From contig NC_092672.1 in assembly GCF_964355755.1 (NCBI RefSeq), positions 992,001-1,056,000 of the forward strand: a stretch of DNA of 64,000 nt. Direction: 5' to 3'. This document shows positions 8,800 to 52,486 of this stretch, in pieces; position 1 is the stretch's first letter, and each line of letters begins with the position of its first letter. The notes under the pieces are model-generated. The model was not told where the DNA came from. It ran no database searches and saw nothing but the letters and a program-made list of their open reading frames with translations. The translations under genes were made by a program, and so were the position numbers. Origin of the DNA: Antedon mediterranea. Its lineage: Eukaryota; Echinodermata; Crinoidea; Comatulida; Antedonidae.

Positions 8800-9335
8800 A
8801 TAAAGCCAGAGAAGATCATTTGTACGCAGCTAAATTGGCCGAAAAAGCAGAACAATATGATGGTATAAGTTTGTATTTAAAATATAAAAATTATTATGAA
8901 ACTTGATTAAAAAATAGTTGTCCTGGCGAGGTGTACCTAATATATAGCTTAATTTACCTAACTAGACACTGAAAAGAAGCAAAGAAAGTATCTCTTTAAA
9001 AGGAAAAATAATTTAGCATATAAAGGTCTTAAGAAAGTAATAATTGTCCTAAAATATGGTTGGTTGTCATTTTTAATCGCCACAATGTATTGATGTTTTT
9101 ATTTTCAATTTCATTGTAATATCTTTAATTATAGTTATTATAGAAATGGTATTCTCTCTGTTTTTTTTATAGACATGGTTAGGGCAATGAAGAATGTAGT
9201 TCAATTGGGCGTAACCTTTACTGTAGAGGAAAGAAATTTACTGTCGGCTGCCTACGAAAATGCAGTAGATGCTAAGAGAGCCTCGTGGAGAACGGTCAAC
9301 GACGAACTCAAACAGAAAGAGTTGATTTATCAATC
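8800..9335 (+). pseudogene. Truncated 14-3-3-like gene copy (two exons only)
   Basis: Exon 8800-8862 encodes AREDHLYAAKLAEKAEQYD. Exon 9173 to about 9330 encodes MVRAMKNV, TVEERNLLSAAYENA and AKRASWR. Together they give helices A to C of the 14-3-3 fold. The first exon is exactly 63 nt and phase 1-1, like exon 2 of the intact neighbour (11253-11315), so the two loci are duplicates. No signal-peptide exon and no exons for helices D-I are found. The third-helix exon has no clear donor and runs into a 16-bp minisatellite near 9336. The position equivalent to zeta K49 is Glu (AYENA instead of AYKNV), while R56 and R60 equivalents are kept. It is either a decayed copy or a source of alternative exons for the downstream gene. 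Confidence 0.75.
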
Positions 9336-10070
9336 TAAGTATGCATCTAAGTATGGATGTAGTATCAATCTAAGTATGGATACTTCTAAGTATGGATCTA
9401 GTATGGATCTCAGTATGGATACTTCTAAGTATGGATACTTCTAAGTATGGATACTTCATGGATCTCAGTATGGATACTTCTAAGTATAGATACTTCTAAG
9501 TATGGATACTTCTAAGTATGGATACTTCTAAGTATGGATCTCAGTATGGATACTTCTAAGTATGGATACTTCTAAGTATGTATATTTCTAAGTATGGATC
9601 TCAGTATGGATACTTCTAAGTATGGATACTTCTAAGTATGGATACTTCTAAGTATGGATATTTATAAGTATGGATACTTCTAAGTATGGATACTTCTAAG
9701 TATGGATATTTCTAAGTATGGATATTTCTAAGTATGGATATTTCTAAGTATGGATACTTCTAAGTATGGATACTTCTAAGTATGGATACTTCTAAGTATG
9801 GATACTTCTAAGTATGGATACTTCTAAGTATGGATACTTCTAAGTATGGATACTTCTAAGTATGGATACTTCTAAGTATGGATACTTCTAAGTATGGATC
9901 TCAGCATGGATACTTCTAAGTATGGATCTAAGCATGAATTTAAGTATGGATACTTCTAAGTATGGATCTAAGTATGAATCTAAGTATGAATCTAAGTATG
10001 AATCTAAGTATGAATCTAAGTATGAATCTAAGTAAGGATCTAAGTAGAATCTAAGTAGGATCTAACTACT
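9336..10070. repeat. Minisatellite TATGGATACTTCTAAG (16 bp)
   Basis: About 45 imperfect copies of a 16-bp unit tatggatacttctaag, with shorter variants (aagtatggatct, aagtatgaatct) at both ends. It begins inside the third-helix exon of the truncated 14-3-3 copy and occupies the place where its remaining exons would lie. Confidence 0.93.
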
Positions 10071-10675
10071 AATGCCTAAACGTTCAATTATACGAAGACG
10101 GATTGCTTCACTGTCAGTGACCACGTGACCACCAATTAGAAGTAAACGATGCAATAAAAGCTATATTATTATTAGATACAAGTAAAACTATATAAAAGAT
10201 AGTTAACTCTTTGAAATACATGATAATATATTAAATCATTCATTCCATGGTTAGTTCTCATGGGATAACCTTTCATCAATACAATCAAACAAAGAATTCC
10301 ATTACCGATAAAAATATACTTTAAATTTTGCTGTTAATATACAGTACAATCGAAGGAAAAAATGGTCTGACCAATAACAAGTTAATTACTATTATAATAA
10401 TAATTATAACAAAAGAAGCATTTTTATGATTTTTTAAACGTGATTTTAAACATTACTATTATGATGGTAATATACAGTACAATCGACGGAAAGTGGCCTG
10501 ACCGATAAAAAGATACTTTACTATTTTAATTAAAATACTATGAATTAATGAGCTATTGTTTAATCTCTCTGAAATATATGAGCACTGACTATTACTCTTA
10601 TTCTACCTGAAGGCAACAGAAGGCAGCAGTCTTTCCATCGTTGTAAACTAACTTAAATAAAATAACACTTTTAAA

Positions 10676-13330
10676 ATGAACGTAACGTCAGTAGTATACC
10701 TTGTATTGCTTTGTTTCTTCGCAAGAGTGACATACTCGCAACACAATGGTAAGATGTATTATCTTGTTTATTTTGTATAATAATAATTAATTAGAATAAC
10801 TTTTGAAATAAGTATGTTCAATATATTTTTCCATCCAGCAGCGAGTAACTTGCCAATTGCAGGATGGATAAACTATTTTATAATTTATCGTGCTTATAAA
10901 CCAAGTCTCTGTTGAGGCTTATAGGGAGTGGAGTTGAAAGAGTCGTGACTTACAACCCTGACACTAGGTCAGGATTGAACCCCGGACCCGGCAAGCACTT
11001 TGACCACAAATCTACAGCTCCACTCCACCAAGCTACAGCTCCACAATATAAAGCCGAAACAAAATATATAGAAACGTGTGTTTTTCTCGGTTTAAGCATT
11101 GTAATTGTTTTCCAGTAGTTTGCCTAATTTAATATATAAAAAACAGCTCCTCTGCAAATAATCTTCTGACTGTTTTACCCTCTTTCGGACTTTCTTTCTG
11201 CCTACGTAAAATAAGCATAGGACATCTCGTGATATTTTGTGTTTATTTGTAGAAAAATCAAGAGAAGATCATGTGTACGAAGCTAAATTGTCCGTACAAG
11301 CAAGAAGATATGATGGTATACGTGGATTGTATTTGTTATAAAAAGTATTGAGATTTGACGGCATACTATAGCTTACCAGACACTGCAAAATAGTTTGTTT
11401 AAAGTGTATTAGGCAATTGACTAAATACCGAGGAGATGTTGACGGTCTCCTTCCTTGATATTCTCTCCCTCCTACATAATTTAGCACAATTTTACTTCTA
11501 CACAAATGTTCACCTTACTTCACTTGGTTACCATTCCTATTTAGATATTACTTAAAACATTTGCATTGATGAAGGGCTAGTGTTGATCGTTTTGATTTAG
11601 CTTTTTGCTGATCTTATTTTGTATTTTGCATATCTCCATTGACATCCAGCCACTGATACCCACAGCTTTATCATTATTTTTAGTAATTTGCCTTTGGATT
11701 AAAAACATTTTAAATGTATTACATAGGTATTGTATAATAGAGGTATGTGCTATGCATAATAGGCCTATAGCTATTACGCTTAATTCCTTGCTAATTCTTT
11801 TAAATTATATTCCATTGCAAGAATAAATGTTGGTAATTATAATTTTATAAAAACAGGTATGTTTGAATCAATGAAAGCTGTAGCTAACCTAGACAAAGTA
11901 GAGTTAACGACAGAGGAGAGAGACTTACTGTCAGTCGCCTTCGAACAAGCAGTGGGAGCTAAAAGAGACTCGTGGGAAATTATCAGCAGCACTGAACAAA
12001 AGGAAACAAATGACAAACATTCTGAATTGGCTAAAACTTACAAAACTAAGGTGTGTAACAAAATAAAATAAACAAAATGGCCGAAATTTAAAAAATAAAT
12101 AAAATTTCGACATCGTAAATATAAATCTAAAAACTACATTTAAATTCATATGTACTGGTATCAAATATGATGAAGACACGTGAAACGTGTCCAAAATTCA
12201 AGGTAAGTTAAATTTGTGCTTTGTTAGTTTGTTTAAAATACTTTCTATATTTACATTCATTTGGCAGTATTAGTCTTTTATTAGTTTATTTATTTATTTA
12301 TTTATTTATTCAATTTCTGCCATATACATAACAAAGAAGACAAAACAATTATAAAAGGAGGCACGGAAAGACCAAATAGGTGCTAAACACCTATGCTAGT
12401 TGGTCAACCCAGAACAGAGAAAAATAAATAAATTACGTTCTACAATAAAAGCATCGACAAGAAAGCGACCAACTACACACATTTTCAATATCAAAATTAT
12501 TTAAAAAATAAATATTGAGATAATTGCTAGTAATTTATTTTTATTGAAACTGATCTACTTTATACAATGATAACTGAATAAAGCGGAACTAAAAATGATT
12601 TATTCATGTTGTAAGAAGTGATGAGCCTCATAGACACATATATATTATTCAACGTGTTATTATTAGACCTATCAGTCTGTTGTAGATTGTTGTTGCTACT
12701 TTTTTGTTAGATGGAAAAAGAAATTCAGGCGATGTGTGAAGATATGTTAGAAGCACTTGATAAACTAATCGCAACTGCTGAAAGCACTAAAAGACAAGAA
12801 GATAAAGTGATTTATCACAGAATGCAAGTATACAGGATTTTTATTATTAATTTAATATTTCTACTCTATCATGAATATTTTTGTGGTCTTCTATAAGAAA
12901 ACTCCGAACGTTTGCAATTTTCGAAATATTTTTAAATAAATAAATTAACTTAAAAGTTAATGTTGTATAATTTTAAATATATATTTTTAGGAAAGGAGAC
13001 GCTTACAGATATCTGGCAGAAATTGCTGTCGGAGCAGAAAGAACAGAGGCAGAAAATGAGAGTTTACAAGCCTATAAAACCGCAAAACAACTTGCGGAGG
13101 AAGAATTACCAACCACTGATCCAATTCGATTGGAAGTAGCTCTGAACTTGTCAGAGTTCTACTATGAAATCTTAAACGATCCAGACAGTGCAATGACGTT
13201 AGCCAAATCTGCCTTCGATGCTGCAATAGCCGAGTTGGATGCGCTAAATGAAGATGATTACAAGGAGTTTACGCGTATTATGCAGTTATTACGTGATAAC
13301 CTGACTCTGTGGACCTCGGACATCCCATAA
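10676..13330 (+). CDS. 14-3-3-like protein with N-terminal signal peptide
   Basis: Exons are 10676-10748, 11253-11315, 11857-12050, 12711-12823 and 12991-13330 (stop TAA). They total 783 nt, 260 residues. The first exon encodes a signal peptide: Met-Asn-Val-Thr, hydrophobic core [12 protein letters not shown], then RVTYS with likely cleavage before QHN. It ends in phase 1 and joins in frame to [14 protein letters not shown], 14-3-3 helix A. The rest covers the whole fold: [10 protein letters not shown] (helix C), [23 protein letters not shown] and [14 protein letters not shown]. The C-terminal tail is only IP. 14-3-3 proteins are normally cytosolic phospho-Ser/Thr adaptors. Here R56, R127 and Y128 equivalents are kept, but K49, R60 and V176 equivalents are all Glu. 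Dimer residues R18, Y82, K85 and E89 are kept; D21 is Gly. Intron 4 needs a GC donor. I infer a secreted or lumenal 14-3-3 derivative. Confidence 0.87.
10900..11046 (-). mobile_element. tRNA-derived SINE-like insertion
   Basis: Read on the minus strand, the segment starts ggagctgtagcttggtggag and carries a B-box-like ggggttcaatcctgacc, with an inverted ctccactcc-type end near 10925. A related copy is at 20980-21282 on the plus strand. It lies in intron 1 of the signal-peptide 14-3-3 gene. Confidence 0.6.
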
Positions 13331-34700: not shown

Positions 34701-37700
34701 CAGGAGAGCCATTTACCATGCACTAGCATCAACTTTAAACCTCATCTGGAGGGGGATCGCTCAGAAAACCATTTACTTGCTACATGTAAGTATGCAAGCA
34801 GATTATTGTCTTAAAGTGTTTTTAAATTGAGGGATAAGCAAGCAGTACAGTTTCCTTGGTAACTCATTAAAACACCAATATAATAAGTCATTATTACAGC
34901 ATTACAATACATGCTCATAATCCAGGGAAGATACAAAAAATGTTGTGTACAACTACTACCATAAACTCCTCGAAAAGAAGCCCATCTCGAAAAGTTTGCA
35001 AAAGTAATCTGGAAAAGAGGCCTATCTCAAAAAGCCCACCCAAGAGTCCTAAAAAATAAGCCCATGGGCTTATTTTTTATTCTTTACGGTAGCTCACTAA
35101 CGTAGCATAGTAAATGTATAGTTCTTAAAACGTAACTTAAAACATTTGTAGTACAACAGTGCTATGTACAACAGTGCTGCTATGTACAACAGTGCTGCTA
35201 TGTACAACAGTGCTGCTATGTACAACAGTGCTGCTATGTACAACAGTGCTGCTATGTACAACAGTGCTGCTATGTACAACAGTGCTGCTATGTACAACAG
35301 TGCTGCTATGTACAACAGTGCTGCTATGTACAACAGTGCTGCTATGTACAACAGTGCTGCTATGTACAACAGTGCTGCTATGTACAACAGTGCTGCTATG
35401 TACAACAGTGCTGCTATGTACAACAGTGCTGCTATGTACAACAGTGCTGCTATGTACAACAGTGCTGCTATGTACAACAGTGCTGCTATGTACAACAGTG
35501 CTGCTATGTACAACAGTGCTGCTATGTACAACAGTGCTGCTATGTACAACAGTGCTGCTATGTACAACAGTGCTGCTATGTACAACAGTGCTGCTATGTA
35601 CAACAGTGCTGCTATGTACAACAGTGCTGCTATGTACAACAGTGCTGCTATGTACAACAGTGCTGCTATGTACAACAGTGCTGCTATGTACAACAGTGCT
35701 GCTATGTACAACAGTGCTGCTATGTACAACAGTGCTGCTATGTACAACAGTGCTGCTATGTACAACAGTGCTGCTATGTACAACAGTGCTGCTATGTACA
35801 ACAGTGCTGCTATGTACAACAGTGCTGCTATGTACAACAGTGCTGCTATGTACAACAGTGCTGCTATGTACAACAGTGCTGCTATGTACAACAGTGCTGC
35901 TATGTACAACAGTGCTGCTATGTACAACAGTGCTGCTATGTACAACAGTGCTGCTATGTACAACAGTGCTGCTATGTACAACAGTGCTGCTATGTACAAC
36001 AGTGCTGCTATGTACAACAGTGCTGCTATGTACAACAGTGCTGCTATGTACAACAGTGCTGCTATGTACAACAGTGCTGCTATGTACAACAGTGCTGCTA
36101 TGTACAACAGTGCTGCTATGTACAACAGTGCTGCTATGTACAACAGTGCTGCTATGTACAACAGTGCTGCTATGTACAACAGTGCTGCTATGTACAACAG
36201 TGCTGCTATGTACAACAGTGCTGCTATGTACAACAGTGCTGCTATGTACAACAGTGCTGCTATGTACAACAGTGCTGCTATGTACAACAGTGCTGCTATG
36301 TACAACAGTGCTGCTATGTACAACAGTGCTGCTATGTACAACAGTGCTGCTATGTACAACAGTGCTGCTATGTACAACAGTGCTGCTATGTACAACAGTG
36401 CTATGTTCATTTGTAGTACAACAGTGCTATGTTCATTTGTAGTACAACAGTGCTATGTTCCTAATTTTTCCATTCTTAGCAAGGCTTCATGATTTTTCTT
36501 GTTAACATCTTACTGTAAGTTTAACTAATAAAATCTATGTTTACATACAGTAGTTAATGTTTGATTAATGTTTCATTGCTAATTACTGTAGATGCATCTA
36601 TGTTTACATACAGTAGTTAATGTTTAATTGTTAATTACTGTAGATGCATCTGGTATGGTTAAACTGTGGCACATGTCTACTGGTCAGTGCCTGCACACAT
36701 CACATGAAGCAAGACAGACGTTGACAGCAGCATACAACCAAGACGCTACCTTGTATGTCACTGGGGGATCAGATACCAAACTCAATGTATATGATACTAC
36801 CACAGGACAGATTTGTAAGACTTGTGAACCAAGGCAAGAAATTACAATTACAATTATTACTCAAAAGAATATAAAGCTCTGTCTACACTATCAAACTAGT
36901 TTGACAAAAATGCCTAAATATGGTAGTGATATGCCCAAATATGGTAGTGTATGATATCATTTGTCTCCCAATATGGGCATTTCACATTTTGATAGTATAG
37001 ACAGAGCTTTATATTGTTTGAAGATTTGCATAGCAAAATCAAACGTTGATATAAAGTTTGTGGTACACTACATACAGTATATATTCTGGAGTGAGAAATC
37101 CGTTCTCACTCCTGAGGAAAATAAAATTATATTGATCTAAACTTCAAGATAAACTCAATACAACAGATATATGTGGTAAAAGAATATTATAATACAATTG
37201 TTGCTCCATAATATAGCCCCATATTATATTATCTCAGTGAATGTTTGAGAACATGTGTGCTAAACAAATGTCAAATCTTGTTTTTAACATGAAAGACAAC
37301 CTTGTTTCACAGCCCTTCTGTCACCATCATGGATGGCCATCGGTTCCGTGTCTTCTCTATTAAATTCCATCCTCACGACAATGCTTCATTTGTGTCCGGT
37401 GGCTGGGATGACACTGTTCAATTCTGGAACACAACGTCTGAGCACTCAATAAGGTAACATGTTTATTTTTTTTCAAGCATATTGTACTACAAAATTCCAG
37501 GATTCGAAAGTCCTGTCACATGACCTATCACCCTGGGATTATTTATAATTATTACTTTTAAAAAATAATGTACAAATATAATTTAAATAAATAACTTTAG
37601 GAAATTAAATGGACCTCATATATGCGGTGATGCCTTAGACATTGATCCTCATCATAACCATGTTGTAACAGGATCATGGCGTACAGAGTACAACCTACAG

Positions 37701-40284: not shown

Positions 40285-41453
40285 TTATCCAAAAACATAT
40301 GACAGTTGGTCAGAATTGTCATCGTCATCAGCATGTTCATCAGCATATTCATAAGCTTTCTTCTTCTTGTAGGTTCTGTAAAAGAACAATTCATTTTATT
40401 TAAACAGAGAACAATATATCCTGCTTTCTGTACCAAAACGTTTTCTTTCAGAATGTTTTCCTTTTATTACCTCATCATCCATGTAAACGCAATTAGGCCT
40501 AATTAATGAAAATAGTCAATATAAACAATTAATTTCTATTATCATCATTACTGTAAATAATCATTGTATATATTTTATAATTAATATTTATATTGTTTTT
40601 TGTTTGTGTAAAAATCTACTGTAATATTATACCTCATTATGGTTACCATTATAAAAAAAAGGACGATTGAATGAATAAAGTTCATTTATATATTAAAAAA
40701 AAAAAAAATCATAATTTGCAGTAGGCCTTATAAATACCGATTATAATAGACGTACTGTAGTGGACTACGACGTTGACAATATAACAAATTAATTATTTAC
40801 TATTACTATTAGTATATTTAGTAAATAAATATATTAATTATTATTATTTAGTTTGATTTCCAATTGGTTATAATCTTACCTGTAACAAGTACATAGAATA
40901 ATGAATACTGCTTTCGGTACCAACACTTTTCCTTTCAGAATCAACGCGATATCGCAATCCTGTTCTTCCATTTATGGTCCTTCACACCTTGCAACTGCAC
41001 ATTCGGCCTTTCGTACCTCATCACGTGACCTTACGCGAGTTGTTGCGTTTTCACACGACGACCATTCAGTCCACGTACTTAGTTCACAATCTATGTTTTT
41101 GCTATCACAACACGAACCGCTATATTTCGTTTTTTGACAATCGCAACCGTGTTTTGTGAGTTCCCCATCATTGTAACAAACACGATTACATGATTGTTTT
41201 TCAGTGGTTGGTTCTTCACATACCACAGGTCCGCATCCAGTCACTTCAAGCACGTTCCTAAGCCTGAATTGGGTTCCGTTTGCACCACATTTCTGCGAAC
41301 ATTCAGACCACTGACTCCTATCGCTGTACTTACAAGCAATAACAACACAATTGCATATCCCCTTCTAGCCTGGTGTCCTCCGATCAAGATTCCACCAACA
41401 AAAATTACTCCGACTATTATTAAAATACAGAGTATTTTACCTTTGTCTCCCAT
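40285..41453 (-). pseudogene. TSP1-EGF-TSP1 two-TM family, copy A (broken)
   Basis: Exon 1 is 41453-40880 and exon 2 is 40375-40285 (stop TAA). The start encodes a membrane segment (CILIIVGVIFVGGILIGG). The frame is lost near 41330-41360, where about 8 nt extra are present relative to copy B. The first TSP1 module resumes in another frame (WSECSQKCGANGTQFRLR), followed by an EGF-like module (CNRVCYNDGELTKHGCDCQK) and the second TSP1 (STWTEWSSCENATTRVRSRD). There TAA replaces the conserved Tyr codon right after RCEGP, ahead of the second membrane segment. Beyond the stop, reading continues to a donor and to the tail exon (YKKKKAYEYADEHADDDDN). The first TSP1 also has Arg for its first Trp. Two independent lesions make it a likely pseudogene. 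Confidence 0.75.
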
Positions 41454-44409: not shown

Positions 44410-45389
44410 TTAGTCTTTCTCTAACTCGTTGTCATTGTCACGTTTATTTGTCTCCTCCTTAATCTTCTTTTTGTCGGCTGCCGGTCTAAAAAGATAAAAA
44501 AAACTTTTATTGTATTACCTATACAGGTAAAATTAAATAGAATAGTGCTAAACAGACACAATTCAACATCCAATTTAGATTTTTAATGAATAAAGATGTG
44601 TTGTCCTCTGAAAATCATGAACAAATGAAGACTTTGAATGCCATTTTGCAATTATACAGTATAATGTTCATTGCGTTTACCGATTGATTTCAACCAATAT
44701 TAATCAATGTAATATATACTGAATGACCTATAGACTTACCGGTAATTGTTAAAAAGAAGAACACCAATAATAGCAAACACACCTGCTATAAGTAAACCTG
44801 CAATAAGTTTAAGTACAAAGTATACTACTGCTTTGGACACCATAAAGTAACTGTCAAGAATCGACGCAACATTGCAACTCTGCACCTCCTTCATATACGG
44901 TCCTTCACACCTTGCACCTGCGCATTCAGCCTTTCGTGCCTCATCACGTGACCTTACGCGAGTTATTGCGTTTTCACCACAAGACGACCATTCAGTCCAC
45001 GTACTTAGTTCACAATCGATGTTTTTGCAATCACAACACGAACCGCTATATGTGGTCTTTCGACAATCACAACCTTGTTCTGTGAGCTCCCCACCGTTGT
45101 AACAAAAACGATTACAGGGTTGTTGTTCAATGGTAGGTTCTTCACATACCACCTCAGGTCCGTCGGATCCAGTTTCAACTTGTAGGCTCCTGAACCTAAA
45201 TCGGGTTCCGGATACACCACATGTATTTGGACAATCAGACCAAGGACTCCAATCGCTGTACTTATAAACAATTACACCACTTTTTTCTGCCGTCAAATAT
45301 CTTTCAGTATAAAATCCACCAAAAAAAATTGCTGACAAGAATGCTATTATAGCAGAACAACCAAGACAAATATCTAAATGTTCTCCCAT
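44410..45389 (-). CDS. TSP1-EGF-TSP1 two-TM protein, copy B (intact)
   Basis: Exon 1 is 45389-44740 and exon 2 is 44485-44410 (stop TAA), joined in phase 2; 726 nt, 241 residues. Order: an N-terminal membrane segment (about 7-27, CLGCSAIIAFLSAIFFGGF), a first thrombospondin type-1 module (about 44-92, WSPWSDCPNTCGVSGTRFRF), an EGF-like Cys-rich module (92-122, CNRFCYNGGELTEQGCDC, SGSCCDC), a second TSP1 (128-172, WTEWSSCGEN, RVRSRDEARKAEC), a second membrane segment (181-213) and a basic-then-acidic tail (DKKKIKEETNKRDNDNELEKD). WSPW and WTEW are tryptophan C-mannosylation type motifs. If both hydrophobic segments span the membrane, both ends are cytosolic and the modules form an extracellular loop; alternatively the first is a cleaved signal. 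TSP1 modules mediate adhesion and matrix or pathogen binding in known proteins. I recognise no named family with this order. Confidence 0.85.
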
Positions 45390-48300
45390 GATAGTCGATC
45401 ACAGACTACTATAAAAATACTGGCGCATCAGATTGTGCTTATTCTGATTTTTTATTCCAACGGTAAACGTTGATTAACGGTAATTGAGCTTGTTCGTTGA
45501 GTACTAAACGGTAAAGTCCCAAACACTTCCTCATTCCTCGTCAGGATCCTGATCATCCTCTACATACATAACCTTATAGCCAAACTGGTAGACTGATCAC
45601 TCTGAATCAAAACACTAAACGCTTCAGACAATAATTCTATTCATGTTTTTAATAGTAAGTTTGAAAGATCACTTTAGATGCTTTATATTATATTGTATTC
45701 ATGTCTATTTTGCATTTAAATTCAACCAATCAAATTTCGTTTTTTACAATTTTGTTTAAATGACAATAAATACTATTGTATCGTATCCATGGTGACTAGA
45801 TTAATAGATAACTTGGAATTTTCAAATAAGTTGCAAACAATAATCAGGATTTAAACCTATTTTGAAAAAAAAAATTCATTGCCATTGAATTCCCAAGCAC
45901 TTTAGTTTATACGGTATAATTGAGAACTATAGTAGGCCTACTCAAAAGATACTTTGAGGTGGAGAAAGCAATTTAAGTTTCGGATCATAATAGAAACCAA
46001 ATGAGAAGAGTACAGACAGTAACTGGCCAGTCGCAAGTGATAATTCATCTGAAAGGAACCGGCTTGATCAGAACAATAATTCGATTTTTCATTTTTTTTC
46101 TCAAATAAATTCAATTAAAACACAAAGGATGCTTGGCTTTTTAAGAGAGGGGGACAGGTGTTACAGGTATGAAGAGCCGATTTTATAATATGAACGCTTA
46201 TTTCAACCAACTTAAAATACATTAGTGTAACTACTCAGGGTATGTAGTAGTAGGCCTAATATAGGCATCGTAAACATATTCCAACCCTGTTGTTGTTGGA
46301 AAGCGGAACTTTGTGTTCTGCCCTGGTATAACAATCTTAACGTTCAACTAATCCCTCACTATTCAACTGTTGTTGTAAAGTAAAGTGGATTGCTTGATGG
46401 AAATGAGTTTATAAAACATAATAACGTTTCAGTCTGATGACACTACCTACCGCCGGAGGGTTTACTTGTGTGCCATACGAATTTCAAAAGAAAACTTTTA
46501 TGTTGTGATGGCGCCGGCATTAAAAAACATTCATATCTGATAATAAAGGAGCGGGAGTATGATGACATGCTTCAATTCCATTGAATCATCAAATGTGTTC
46601 CACTGTCTGCATACGTTATGCAGCCATAATGGCATATCGTGTTGCCAGTCGATTAATATGGTGATCATCTATTTATTGTGAAAATGGTTAAAAAATGCTG
46701 TGCTGAGAATCACTCCTGATAATAATAACAAAGTTCAGTTTTTCGCTATGAAGATTTTTCGGTTTTTAAAATAGGCCTAATACTTATTTAGTTTTTTAAG
46801 CCTATCAAGGCTGGCTATGCGTTAGTAAAGGGATATTGTGTTGTTAAAGAATAAGTAGGGTCAACGTTTTCAAATCATGGCAGCTATTTTAAGTTTATGC
46901 ATTTTATGTAATTATTGATAAGACAAATCAGGGTAGATTTTGGATATTAATAATAATATATAATAGGCCTATATTTTAGAAAAATAAATTTGCAATTTTT
47001 TTGAGTGAAAAGCTATACCACCTTATTACATTACTGTTAGGTGTAATCATTCAAAATAATTTAAAGTGGCAAAGCCAGCTAGGTAGATAACATTTGTATT
47101 AAAGCTAAAAAGAAAATGTTTATGATACGCAAGTTGAGAGAAGCAGGTCTTAATAGTAATGAACTTATTTCTGTTTACGAGGGTTATTTGAGACCGGTGC
47201 TTGAGTATGCAGCCCCTTTGTGGCATGCGGGTCTTACGCAGGGGCAGGTGAATAAGATTCAGAAGCGTGTCTGCAAGATTGTGTTGGGCAACACTCCACT
47301 CCAACTAGAAGATGGCACTCTTGCAAGGTTTTTGCCTCTAAATCACACGCCTCTGGTCAATTCTCCACCTGGTTCCCTGCCCCTCAGTATAGATCCTGCA
47401 TGACTCTTAGGCATAATCGTAAAATGGAAAATTATAGTTATAAAACAAAACGTTTCCAGACTAGTCCAGTTCCTTTTATGGTTTAACTTTTGAACAAATT
47501 TTAATTTATTTATTTTTTTGCTTGTCTTATTTGAGGTAACTGCAGTCTAACTTATTTGTATTCATATATATATATATATATTGTTGATAGTGTTGTCTAT
47601 AGTTTAAATATTTTTATTGTGTAATAGTTTAATAGATATGCAATTCAGCCATGTGCTGCCATGTATGTACTTTTAAATGTGAATTTTGAATAAATATACC
47701 GAGATATATACATGAGAAAATGCAAATTTTAACTATTTATATAGAAACAATACACAGAAATTATATGATTAATCTCACGATAATTATAATGGAAATATCA
47801 AGAGAGTTACCATCGGAGTTATAGCCTTTTGAAAAACATAAAAACCTATGCTTGAAATTCATGAAAACACCCCCAAGAAAAATAATGGTATACGTCAATT
47901 TTTTTTTACATAAGAGCAAGAAAAACGAAAACGAATTCGTAGGTGGCATATTATAATTAAGGGAAAAATTAGCGTCTGTTGGGGAAAACAACAACACACA
48001 CCTGTTACCATAGAAACCAGTACAGTAATTTATTTTTTATTTTTTCCAAAATATGAAATTCTTGCTATTTTACCTAAAGTGTAATTGAGTACCAAAGTAA
48101 GAAGAAATCCCATTTGTTTGCATTTGGTCAATTTTTTATGAAATAGATCGATATTTTTGTCAACCGCTCTTAAATATGTCGTGGTCCAAAAGTGAACACA
48201 GTTTCGACTTAAAGAGTTATTCAACATGGAATTCCTTGAACATAATGGTATTGTCTCATGAATGGGTGAAAATCCTCAACCAATTCCTAAAAGTTCTAAA

Positions 48301-49223: not shown

Positions 49224-50305
49224 TTATCCCATATCAAACGAGTCTTTTTCACACTCGTCATTGTCATTGGCGCGTGTATAACCTTTCTTCTTCTTCTTGT
49301 AGGCTGCTGCTGCTCTGAAAATATAAAGAACACTTAATTAATTGTAAACTAGTGGTGGTATAGAACAGCAGACACAATTCAACATCCAATTGAGATTTTC
49401 TATACAAGAAAAAGTAAATCCTGATATCAAATATACAATACAACACTGTATTAGAGAGAGCAAGAACCATGGTTGGTTCAAGATATATCTAGATATTTGA
49501 CCAGTTCTGTAAAAAGACCTGAATAATCTAGAATCTGGTAAAGATAATTACCAAAATGTTTATAATTTATACATTTTTCATTTGATTATTGAACCATATG
49601 CGCTATATTATTATCACTTGTTTTATACTATATTACCGATTTATTATCAGTCAAATTAACCTACTTACCTGCGACAAACAAAAACACAAATAATAACAAG
49701 GATTGATGTAGATAAAACTGCAATAAGAATAAATACAAGGCATTCTTCTTCCGACTTCAGAACTTTCCTCACGGTATCGCAATTCTGTTCTTCCATATAA
49801 GGTCCTTCACACCTTGCACCTGCGCATTCAGCCTTTCGTACCTCATCACGTGACCTTACGCGAGTTGTTGCGTTTTCACACGACGACCATTCAGTCCAGG
49901 TACATAGTTCACAATCGATATTTTTGCAATCACAACACGAACCGCTATATTTTGTTTTTTGACAGTCGCAACCTTGTTTTGTGAGCTCTCCACCGTTGTA
50001 ACAAACACGATTACAAGGTTGCTCATCAGTGGTGTAGGGTTCGCCAGGACCTTCGATCCTCAGCCGAATTTGGGTTCCATATATGCACCACATTCCCGGG
50101 AACAGTCAGACCAACCGCTGATGTACTTCCACTCATCTCCTTTTTGGTAATCTCCTTTTTGGTAATCTCCTTTCTGATAATCTCCTTCCTGGAAATCTCC
50201 TTTCTGATCATCTCCTTTGATATAACTGTAGTAGTAGATTCCGCAAACACAAGATACTACTACAAATAGTATTATAACACAACAACATCCTCCACAGTCT
50301 TCCAT
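49224..50305 (-). pseudogene. TSP1-EGF-TSP1 two-TM family, copy C (one frameshift)
   Basis: Exon 1 is 50305-49669 and exon 2 is 49314-49224 (stop TAA). The N-terminus has a membrane segment (CCCVIILFVVVSCVCGIYYY) followed by a charged repeat stretch (GDYQKGDYQKGDYQKGD) absent from copies A and B. The first TSP1 starts (GWSDCSRECGAY) but loses frame near 50080, where copy C has two extra bases (gcatatatgg against gcaaacgg in copy A). The remainder is open: GTQIRLRIE, EGF-like CNRVCYNGGELTKQGCDC, second TSP1 WTEWSSCENATTRVRSRD, a membrane segment (FILIAVLSTSILVIICVFV) and a tail (YKKKKKGYTRANDNDECEKD). A single indel in otherwise conserved sequence may be a recent lesion or a sequencing error. 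Confidence 0.75.
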
Positions 50306-52486
50306 GACAGTCAATAGTCCAAATACTAGACTACTTCGAAACCTAAAGAGACAGTTTCTATTCGAATGGTAAACGTAAACTAATGGGTACGTTCGTCGCC
50401 GTCAGTATTAACTCAACGAAAAGTCCCAAATACCTCATCATAGGAGTATTAATAGATAACTTGGAATTTCCAACCAATGAGCACAAATGTTTTGAAAATC
50501 AAAATAACTAGATCTTTATTTATCTTGCCATTCAATTTATAGCCTTTTAATAGTGCCGGATGTTATTTGCGAATTATCGAAAAGAATATGATTTCCTATT
50601 CTACTACAGTAGGCCTACTACTCAAATATCTACAAAATAATATTAGGTGGCGTAGCAATTTAAGTTTCGGAACTAGACTACTAAAAAACAAACGGGAAGA
50701 GTACAGGAGGAGGAATTAAATAACCAGCCAACCACAAGTGACAGATCATCTATAAAAAAAACGGCGTTATCAGAACAATTATTGATTTGTTTCCATTTAT
50801 GTTTTGTTAATCAAAAAACAAAGAGAAAATTGTGTAAAGGCCTTGTACTTGAGGGCGCTATTACATGTAGGTGGTTTTTTTTTTTTTAACCCTGGGAATC
50901 CTATGGTGGGATTGAGAAAAACTGCAGTGCTGCACACTGTACTCCTGGACCATTCTGAGTGAGAGGAAGACAGTGTGTAGGTATGCGCAGGCTTATACTG
51001 TATTGCATTTTAATAAATGCTCATCACGAAACGTTTGTATTGTAGTTAATTCATCAATATAGCTACCTAACATAATAGAGCTATTATTATTAGGCCTAGC
51101 CTAGGCCTAGTAGTAGTACTAGGCCTAGTACTAAGTAGTGTATACCTCCATGTGTAGAGTATGCTACACTGCATGCTGCTGCACTGTAATAAGTGTAGGC
51201 TAGGGCCTACTACTCTAGTCTAGGCCTAGCCTAGTCTAGTTATCAAGAGAAAGGCCAGGCCCCTACTACACTAGCATCAGCTAGGTTAGCTAGATATTAG
51301 GCCTACTACTACTAGATTATAGGCTCAGTCTAGATATACTAAAATGTATTTTAGAAATATTCATTCAATATCATAATAATATGGCTAGATTCCTAGGCTA
51401 GGAGGCCTTGGTAGTTAGGGTAGCCGATCACTCCGGCCGCGCTTCACTCCGGCCGCCGTATCAGTTTAGCACAATGTTATGCACTCCGGCCGCTATTCAA
51501 TTCGACTTCCTGTGCAAAGGGGCCGTTAGTATGGAGCGCCCATATCTACGTTTTCTATACTGTTCAGTGTTATAACAAATTCTTGGTGAATTTAAATGGA
51601 ACTAGTTGAATATTTATTAGCAACAATTTTACTTGTTTCATTAACAATAACATTCAAAGAAGTTGGAACTGCTTTTTCTTTCAAACTAAACTTAACTTCA
51701 TTAAATTCAATAATAAAATAATAATCAAATACCCGTCTAATTAATGCTTGAATAACAATATTTAATTTCTTTGTACATGTACATTTATTTTATAGCTTTA
51801 CATTTATTAACATTAAAAATTAGTTCAAACCCTTATTTTTATAACACTTTATCTTGCCAGTACCCATACTTACTAATTATAGTTAATAACAATATTTACA
51901 ATATTAATTAATTTATTTCAAATAATCCAATATCCGTCTAATTAATGTTACCTGGAATTGTATCAAGAATTAATATATCATTTTTGTACAGTCCAATTTA
52001 CAATGATTTTATATTTTAATTTATATATGATAAAAATAATGACATATAGGGTACATTGCAATAAATTACATTAATTAATCACATTACAATTAATATACTA
52101 GCCTATTACATTGGATAAAACACATAAATTATTTTGTTCTAGCATTAGACCTAATTTAAAACACTTGCGATGTTGTTGTGATCCTGAAAGAGAAAAAATA
52201 TACTGTATTATTACAAATGTTTATTTTGATTCTCTACAAAAAACGTGTCTCGGTTGTAAAAGACTCATTGGGCGCTCCATAGCTGCGGCCGGAATGAATC
52301 GCGGCCGGATTGAAGCGCGGCCGGATTGAAGCGCGGCCGGAGTGAAGCGCGGCCGGAGTGATCTGTATTCGTAGTTAGTAGTAATTTAATTTGAATACAC
52401 AATTTTTCTTTTCACAATTATTCATTGTATAATAAATGTTTTTGTTAAAGGACGCTTTTTGCAACTAAATCATTGGTGGGCAGACC
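50306..52486. other. Spacer between TSP1 family and ACAD10
   Basis: It holds a third gagggcgctattacatgtag / aaaaactgcagtgctgcac block (about 50850-50985), CCTAGGCC-rich simple sequence at 51085-51310, and a TIR element at 51426-52363. ACAD10's promoter must lie in the last ~120 bp of this spacer, within the element, or further upstream; no TATA or initiator was identified. Confidence 0.55.
51426..52363. mobile_element. Non-autonomous DNA transposon with CACTCCGGCCGC terminal inverted repeats
   Basis: The left end gatcactccggccgcgcttc is the exact reverse complement of the right end gaagcgcggccggagtgatc. The matched ends extend 30 bp (to cactccggccg). Further in, tatggagcgccca on the left pairs with tgggcgctccata on the right. 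The right subterminal part holds five GCGGCCGGA(A/T/G)TGAA(T/G)C units. The core (51540-52260) is AT-rich with no transposase frame. The 938-bp element ends about 120 bp before the ACAD10 start codon, so its GC-rich end sits in the likely promoter area. Confidence 0.82.

Follow-up and report, generated by a model that had tools for sequence, protein, structure and literature searches.

14-3-3 proteins are regarded as strictly cytosolic phospho-readers, and those found outside the cell are thought to have leaked or to have been released without a signal peptide. Outside the cell, 14-3-3 isoforms (eta, epsilon, sigma and others) bind aminopeptidase N/CD13 and act as inducers of matrix metalloproteinases (PMC7939381; see also PMC4582189, PMC7017620). 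Their action on aminopeptidase N depends on phosphorylation (PMC7939381), and the routes by which cytosolic isoforms are released include necroptosis (PMC7017620) and 'unconventional secretion' (PMC11140979). In the laboratory, the K49E charge reversal has been reported to abolish most 14-3-3 interactions (PMC2956685). A precedent for converting a housekeeping protein into an exported one comes from nematodes, where glutathione synthetase was re-used as a secreted effector by gaining a signal peptide (PMC5919673). Our literature search, with subscription journals mostly outside its reach, returned no paper on a 14-3-3 protein with a classical signal peptide.

Here we describe a five-exon gene of 14-3-3 epsilon type at 10676-13330 (+) of a 64,000-nucleotide window (positions 992,001-1,056,000 of contig C3) from Antedon mediterranea, analysed against this one genome (354 Mb, 18 contigs). 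Coordinates below are those of the window.

10676-10748, + strand: exon 1, 24 residues with the predicted signal peptide, followed by the opening base of a split codon; donor ATG/GTAAGA, phase 1
10890-11060, + strand: interspersed repeat of SINE-like length with genome-wide matches, inside intron 1, downstream of the signal exon and ahead of the 14-3-3 exons
11253-11315, + strand: exon 2, completes GAA (E), then 20 residues that open 14-3-3 helix A; lacks an ATG; both boundaries in phase 1
11857-12050, + strand: exon 3, helices B-D; bears K49E and R60E
12711-12823, + strand: exon 4, ends AGAAT/GCAAGT, a GC donor where three paralogs have GT
12991-13330 (TAA included), + strand: exon 5, the remaining 14-3-3 fold; bears V176E, G169E and L216R; ends LTLWTSDIP

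Joined, these exons give a stop-free frame of 783 nt and 260 aa that matches the Pfam 14-3-3 profile (PF00244) over its full length (3.2e-77; 259.5 bits against a cut-off of 33.2; profile positions 2-223 of 223). The best match among solved structures in the PDB, on which assignment to the 14-3-3 fold rests, is human 14-3-3 epsilon (7e-76), and identity to that protein (YWHAE) is 58% over aligned residues. The exon junctions lie at the same places as those of the epsilon-type paralogs in the same genome, with matching splice phases. The initial annotation had the four exons after the signal exon completing the fold to LTLWTSD, which stands as regards the open frame and the full Pfam match, and needs correcting at intron 4. 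There, the sole nearby GT (CAA/GTATAC) is in the wrong phase and would imply a frameshift. We rule this out: AGAAT/GCAAGT, together with the acceptor TAG/GAAAGG in matching phase, restores the phase-2 site found as AAAAT/GTAAGT in the three epsilon-type paralogs, so that intron 4 is a GC-AG intron. GC-AG introns are a normal, functional minority class of U2 introns. No disabling stop or frameshift is present in the 783 nt, the one splice-site change being from GT to GC at this donor. The repeat in intron 1 is abundant: the 40 copies scored, out of 1356 candidates, are 81-84% identical and spread over many contigs.

Other features of the window, named by eye, include exons resembling CYP2-type cytochrome P450 (1-2921, +) and several related ORFs (40975-41364, 44739-45398 and 49668-50401, all -) that carry a hydrophobic segment and thrombospondin type-1-like modules (WSxWSxC); these are apparently membrane proteins that form a tandem family at this locus. 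A long, low-complexity tandem array at 35100-36450 is open in several frames on both strands (LLYIAA and CTTVLL repeats, for example). Genome-wide, the sialyltransferase family is very large, with 150 exon-level PF00777 matches, many of them with long open frames; this hints at a deuterostome but does not identify one. Searches for COX1, GFP, GH6 and a molluscan hemocyanin domain came up empty and were uninformative, except that the COX1 search did respond in controls.

What sets the window gene apart from YWHAE, with which it has the whole fold in common, is a signal exon in place of the start codon, an altered pocket and groove, and the lack of an acidic C-terminal tail. Consider the start of the gene. 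Read upstream from exon 2, the frame runs into a stop, the one preceding 11210, without passing an ATG, and a further upstream exon is therefore required. The frame of the ATG at 10676 is closed by a stop immediately ahead of nt 10661, and the intervening 15 nt hold no AG, so that exon 1 must be the first coding exon. Its donor reads G/GTAAG at 10748/10749, and exon 2 begins at TTGTAG/AA (11253) with the two bases that complete GAA before it runs into helix A, as the initial annotation had described. That annotation had also read the ATG as opening a 24-codon signal-peptide exon cleaved at TYS-Q, and the von Heijne eukaryotic matrix agrees, scoring 10.1 at precisely TYS/Q, with a core hydropathy of 3.1. 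The matrix follows the published table and was checked on proteins of known signal status: human insulin scores 6.9, hen lysozyme 10.4 and human 14-3-3 epsilon -8.3. On this prediction, the initiating exon carries the N-terminal signal peptide of classical secretion, and the protein has neither an ER-retention ending nor a later membrane or hydrophobic segment; the family trait of being cytosolic and free of a signal peptide would not hold for it.

Could such an exon have turned up by chance? Among 52 candidates running from an ATG to a phase-1 GT within 2.4 kb upstream of the acceptor, the signal exon has both the top donor (4.1 bits) and by far the highest signal score. When acceptors were drawn at random, none of the 3000 draws made for a given search distance reached a score of 8 or more. 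An exhaustive scan of both strands of 240,812 bases returned exon 1 as the sole match, even with criteria far weaker than its own score, and we found no second copy of the exon in the genome that might have revealed its own conservation, a point against the reading that we prefer. The signal exon is in frame, correctly phased and not explained by chance.

Searching the genome with the PF00244 profile gave 19 exon-level matches, which resolve into three epsilon-type genes, one zeta-like gene (C1), four genes on contig C6, the window gene and an adjoining fragment. The epsilon-type genes are:

C3B, C3:38.77 Mb: own ATG in the homologous exon (MVEGRED), no signal peptide
C3A, C3:38.76 Mb: own ATG in the homologous exon (MTDRQD), no signal peptide
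C10, C10:22.42 Mb: own ATG in the homologous exon (MDENEK), no signal peptide

C3B is the nearest paralog of the window gene, with 59% identity, common exon DNA and some common intron edges. Relative to these three paralogs, comparison of the sequences indicates that the signal-exon state is derived. The four C6 genes have their 14-3-3 domain within a single exon, and three of them, in tandem at C6:22.595-22.603 Mb, carry an acceptor (CTTGCAG/AT) at the position of the start codon, so that the window gene is not the only family member with an intron beside this position. We rejected the idea that the C6 cluster has the signal exon in common with the window gene, no signal-like exon being found upstream of these three genes. 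A tiny first exon, ATGG/GT, lies 75 nt before one of the tandem C6 genes.

The adjoining fragment is a broken tandem sibling upstream of the window gene which, like the GC donor of intron 4, the initial annotation had passed over:

8800-8862, + strand: exon-2 equivalent, (D)KAREDHLYAAKLAEKAEQYD; same acceptor position, no ATG
9173-9330, + strand: exon-3 equivalent, bears K49E; runs into the minisatellite, no later exons
9369-9967 (and on to 10065): 16-bp minisatellite TCTAAGTATGGATACT, ~39 copies, cutting the fragment off after its exon-3 equivalent

Fragment and window gene have a common origin: both have an acceptor replacing the start codon, the residues REDH, and K49E with the A and V that follow it. 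Loss of the ATG and K49E, being common to both copies, must predate the tandem duplication. Similarity in the flank before the signal exon is likewise present in both copies, while the signal-exon stretch and most of intron 1 are absent from the fragment, which has thus either lost the signal exon or never had one.

The groove, where the initial annotation had noted nothing unusual, was compared across C3B, C3A, C10, C1, human epsilon and human zeta, with zeta residue numbering. Of 100 positions invariant in these six proteins, 22 are changed in the window protein. In a stricter set of invariant positions, 9 of the 25 in the groove have changed and 8 of the 54 elsewhere (p = 0.04), groove positions being those of known 14-3-3 structures. 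The conserved phosphate-binding set of K49, R56, R127 and Y128 is no longer intact: K49E and R60E alter the basic pocket, with R56, R127 and Y128 kept. The hydrophobic wall of the groove bears V176E and L216R (L172 and L220 are kept), and V176D and L216D are also known loss-of-binding mutants. Other invariant positions have changed too (N42D, G169E, F117I, K120R, D213E); N173 and N224 are retained. Since pocket and groove wall have been rebuilt with opposite charges, phosphopeptide binding is not expected: judging from sequence, the protein belongs to the same fold family but should not bind phosphopeptides. With K49E, R60E, V176E and L216R destroying the groove, it is probably a groove-dead derivative rather than a canonical 14-3-3 working extracellularly.

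Elsewhere on the protein, the dimer interface is a mixture of kept (L12, A16, R18, S58, V61/62 as I, Y82, K85, E89) and changed residues (I65T, D21G), and the acidic C-terminal tail has been lost. One of the two cysteines conserved in the comparison set is gone (C189M), and one surface-type sequon, NES, has been gained, both of which might be expected of an exported protein. The ancestral sequons NLS at N173 and NLT at N224 are retained; these might be glycosylated in the ER, which counts against a secreted protein.

How does this compare with the described systems? The window protein and the known extracellular 14-3-3s would be alike in acting outside the cell. The latter are, however, ordinary isoforms that bind aminopeptidase N through the groove, whereas the window protein has a predicted classical signal peptide and a broken groove. 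Given K49E, the aminopeptidase N route is unlikely for the window protein, and another surface would have to be used. In the laboratory K49E mutant of 14-3-3 zeta (PMC2956685), K49 is reversed in charge just as it is in the window protein; the mutant is artificial, dominant-negative and cytosolic, whereas K49E in the window gene is natural, inherited and accompanied by further groove changes. Nematode glutathione synthetase took the same evolutionary route from housekeeping duplicate to secreted protein (PMC5919673), in an unrelated family, and we know of no parasitic context for the window gene.

The branch leading to the window gene is strongly accelerated: the best estimate of dN/dS is ~0.5, with values of 0.35-2 (1 included) tolerated in the profile, and on the C3A and C10 branches dN/dS is at most ~0.05. 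On the window branch, dN/dS does not separate relaxed constraint from adaptation. We had considered positive selection but do not uphold it: the omegas from the first branch models were unstable (14.4, 1.3), and the profile tolerates the range just given. With regard to where the changes fall, 24 of 46 family-variable sites have changed versus 26 of 129 conserved sites (p = 1e-4; logistic p = 2e-4). Changes therefore avoid conserved sites, implying that fold constraints still act. In neutral simulations of 100-178 substitutions, the probability that no stop appeared was 0.0001-0.004, and all three internal indels relative to C3B comprise whole codons. The kept frame and the sparing of conserved sites argue against free drift.

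These results bear on the possibility that we are looking at a young pseudogene, an epsilon copy drifting without function below an accidental signal-like ORF. A branch dN/dS indistinguishable from 1, the GC donor, the loss of groove residues and the broken sibling alongside are all in keeping with such a fate, and the sibling, as a sign of decay at the locus, also counts against the explanation that we prefer. Yet after ~100-180 substitutions neither stop nor frameshift has appeared, variable sites have changed 2.6 times as often as conserved sites, and the chance of finding such a signal exon is low. We therefore regard a pseudogene as unlikely.

The remaining alternatives accept the 14-3-3 exons and question what lies in front of them. 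First exons can sit far upstream, so that translation might begin in another, unseen exon lacking a signal peptide and yield a cytosolic product, or it might begin at the in-frame ATG just past the first split codon of exon 3 (11859) and yield a truncated one; two retained groove sequons would indeed be odd in a protein routed through the ER. Within 2.4 kb, however, no candidate equals the donor quality of the signal exon, and a start in exon 3 would drop helix A, part of the dimer interface, making a different start a rather improbable account. Alternatively, since exon placement is by prediction only, the signal exon might belong to a different secreted gene that happens to lie upstream of the 14-3-3 exons. 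Reading through the + strand ORFs of 48 aa or more from 13.3 to 36 kb, however, turned up no secreted-type coding stretch, and the exon, unique in the scanned DNA, fits in phase and position a 14-3-3 exon that needs exactly these. We consider such a coincidence very improbable indeed.

It is thus probable that an epsilon-type duplicate has turned into a secreted pseudo-14-3-3 with a rebuilt groove, which best explains the observations overall. The initial annotation had proposed a secreted 14-3-3 that arose by gain of a signal exon; the open gene, the phased signal exon and its derived state relative to ATG-starting paralogs bear this out, while the loss of the groove through K49E, R60E, V176E and L216R had been missed. 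Under the model that we propose, an epsilon-type gene was duplicated, the closest living paralog being the one near 38.77 Mb on the same contig. The duplicate would have acquired an upstream exon whose product is a cleavable signal peptide, and its original start codon would have given way to the present splice acceptor. Its predicted product would enter the ER, lose a signal peptide of 21 residues and leave the cell as a soluble 14-3-3 fold of ~239 aa. Because few phosphopeptide partners would be met outside the cell, the groove could have evolved freely and been rebuilt with K49E, R60E, V176E, L216R and G169E. The fold would have been retained, possibly along with the dimer. The protein would have to rely on a different surface, its most likely role being that of a dimeric ligand or scaffold outside the cell.

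We infer, then, that the window protein is expressed, secreted and dimeric, and that it has an extracellular role. On balance we lean towards a dedicated, classically secreted and phosphopeptide-blind animal 14-3-3, whose dimeric cup would present a new binding surface and serve outside the cell as a ligand or scaffold. Most likely, the window gene is a signal-peptide 14-3-3 gene that is functional but groove-dead, known from one genome. If this is true, a 14-3-3 has been sent through the classical secretory route and has discarded phosphopeptide binding; the fold would then be uncoupled from its textbook function, and the gene would be a natural model in which to study what the 14-3-3 cup is capable of extracellularly.
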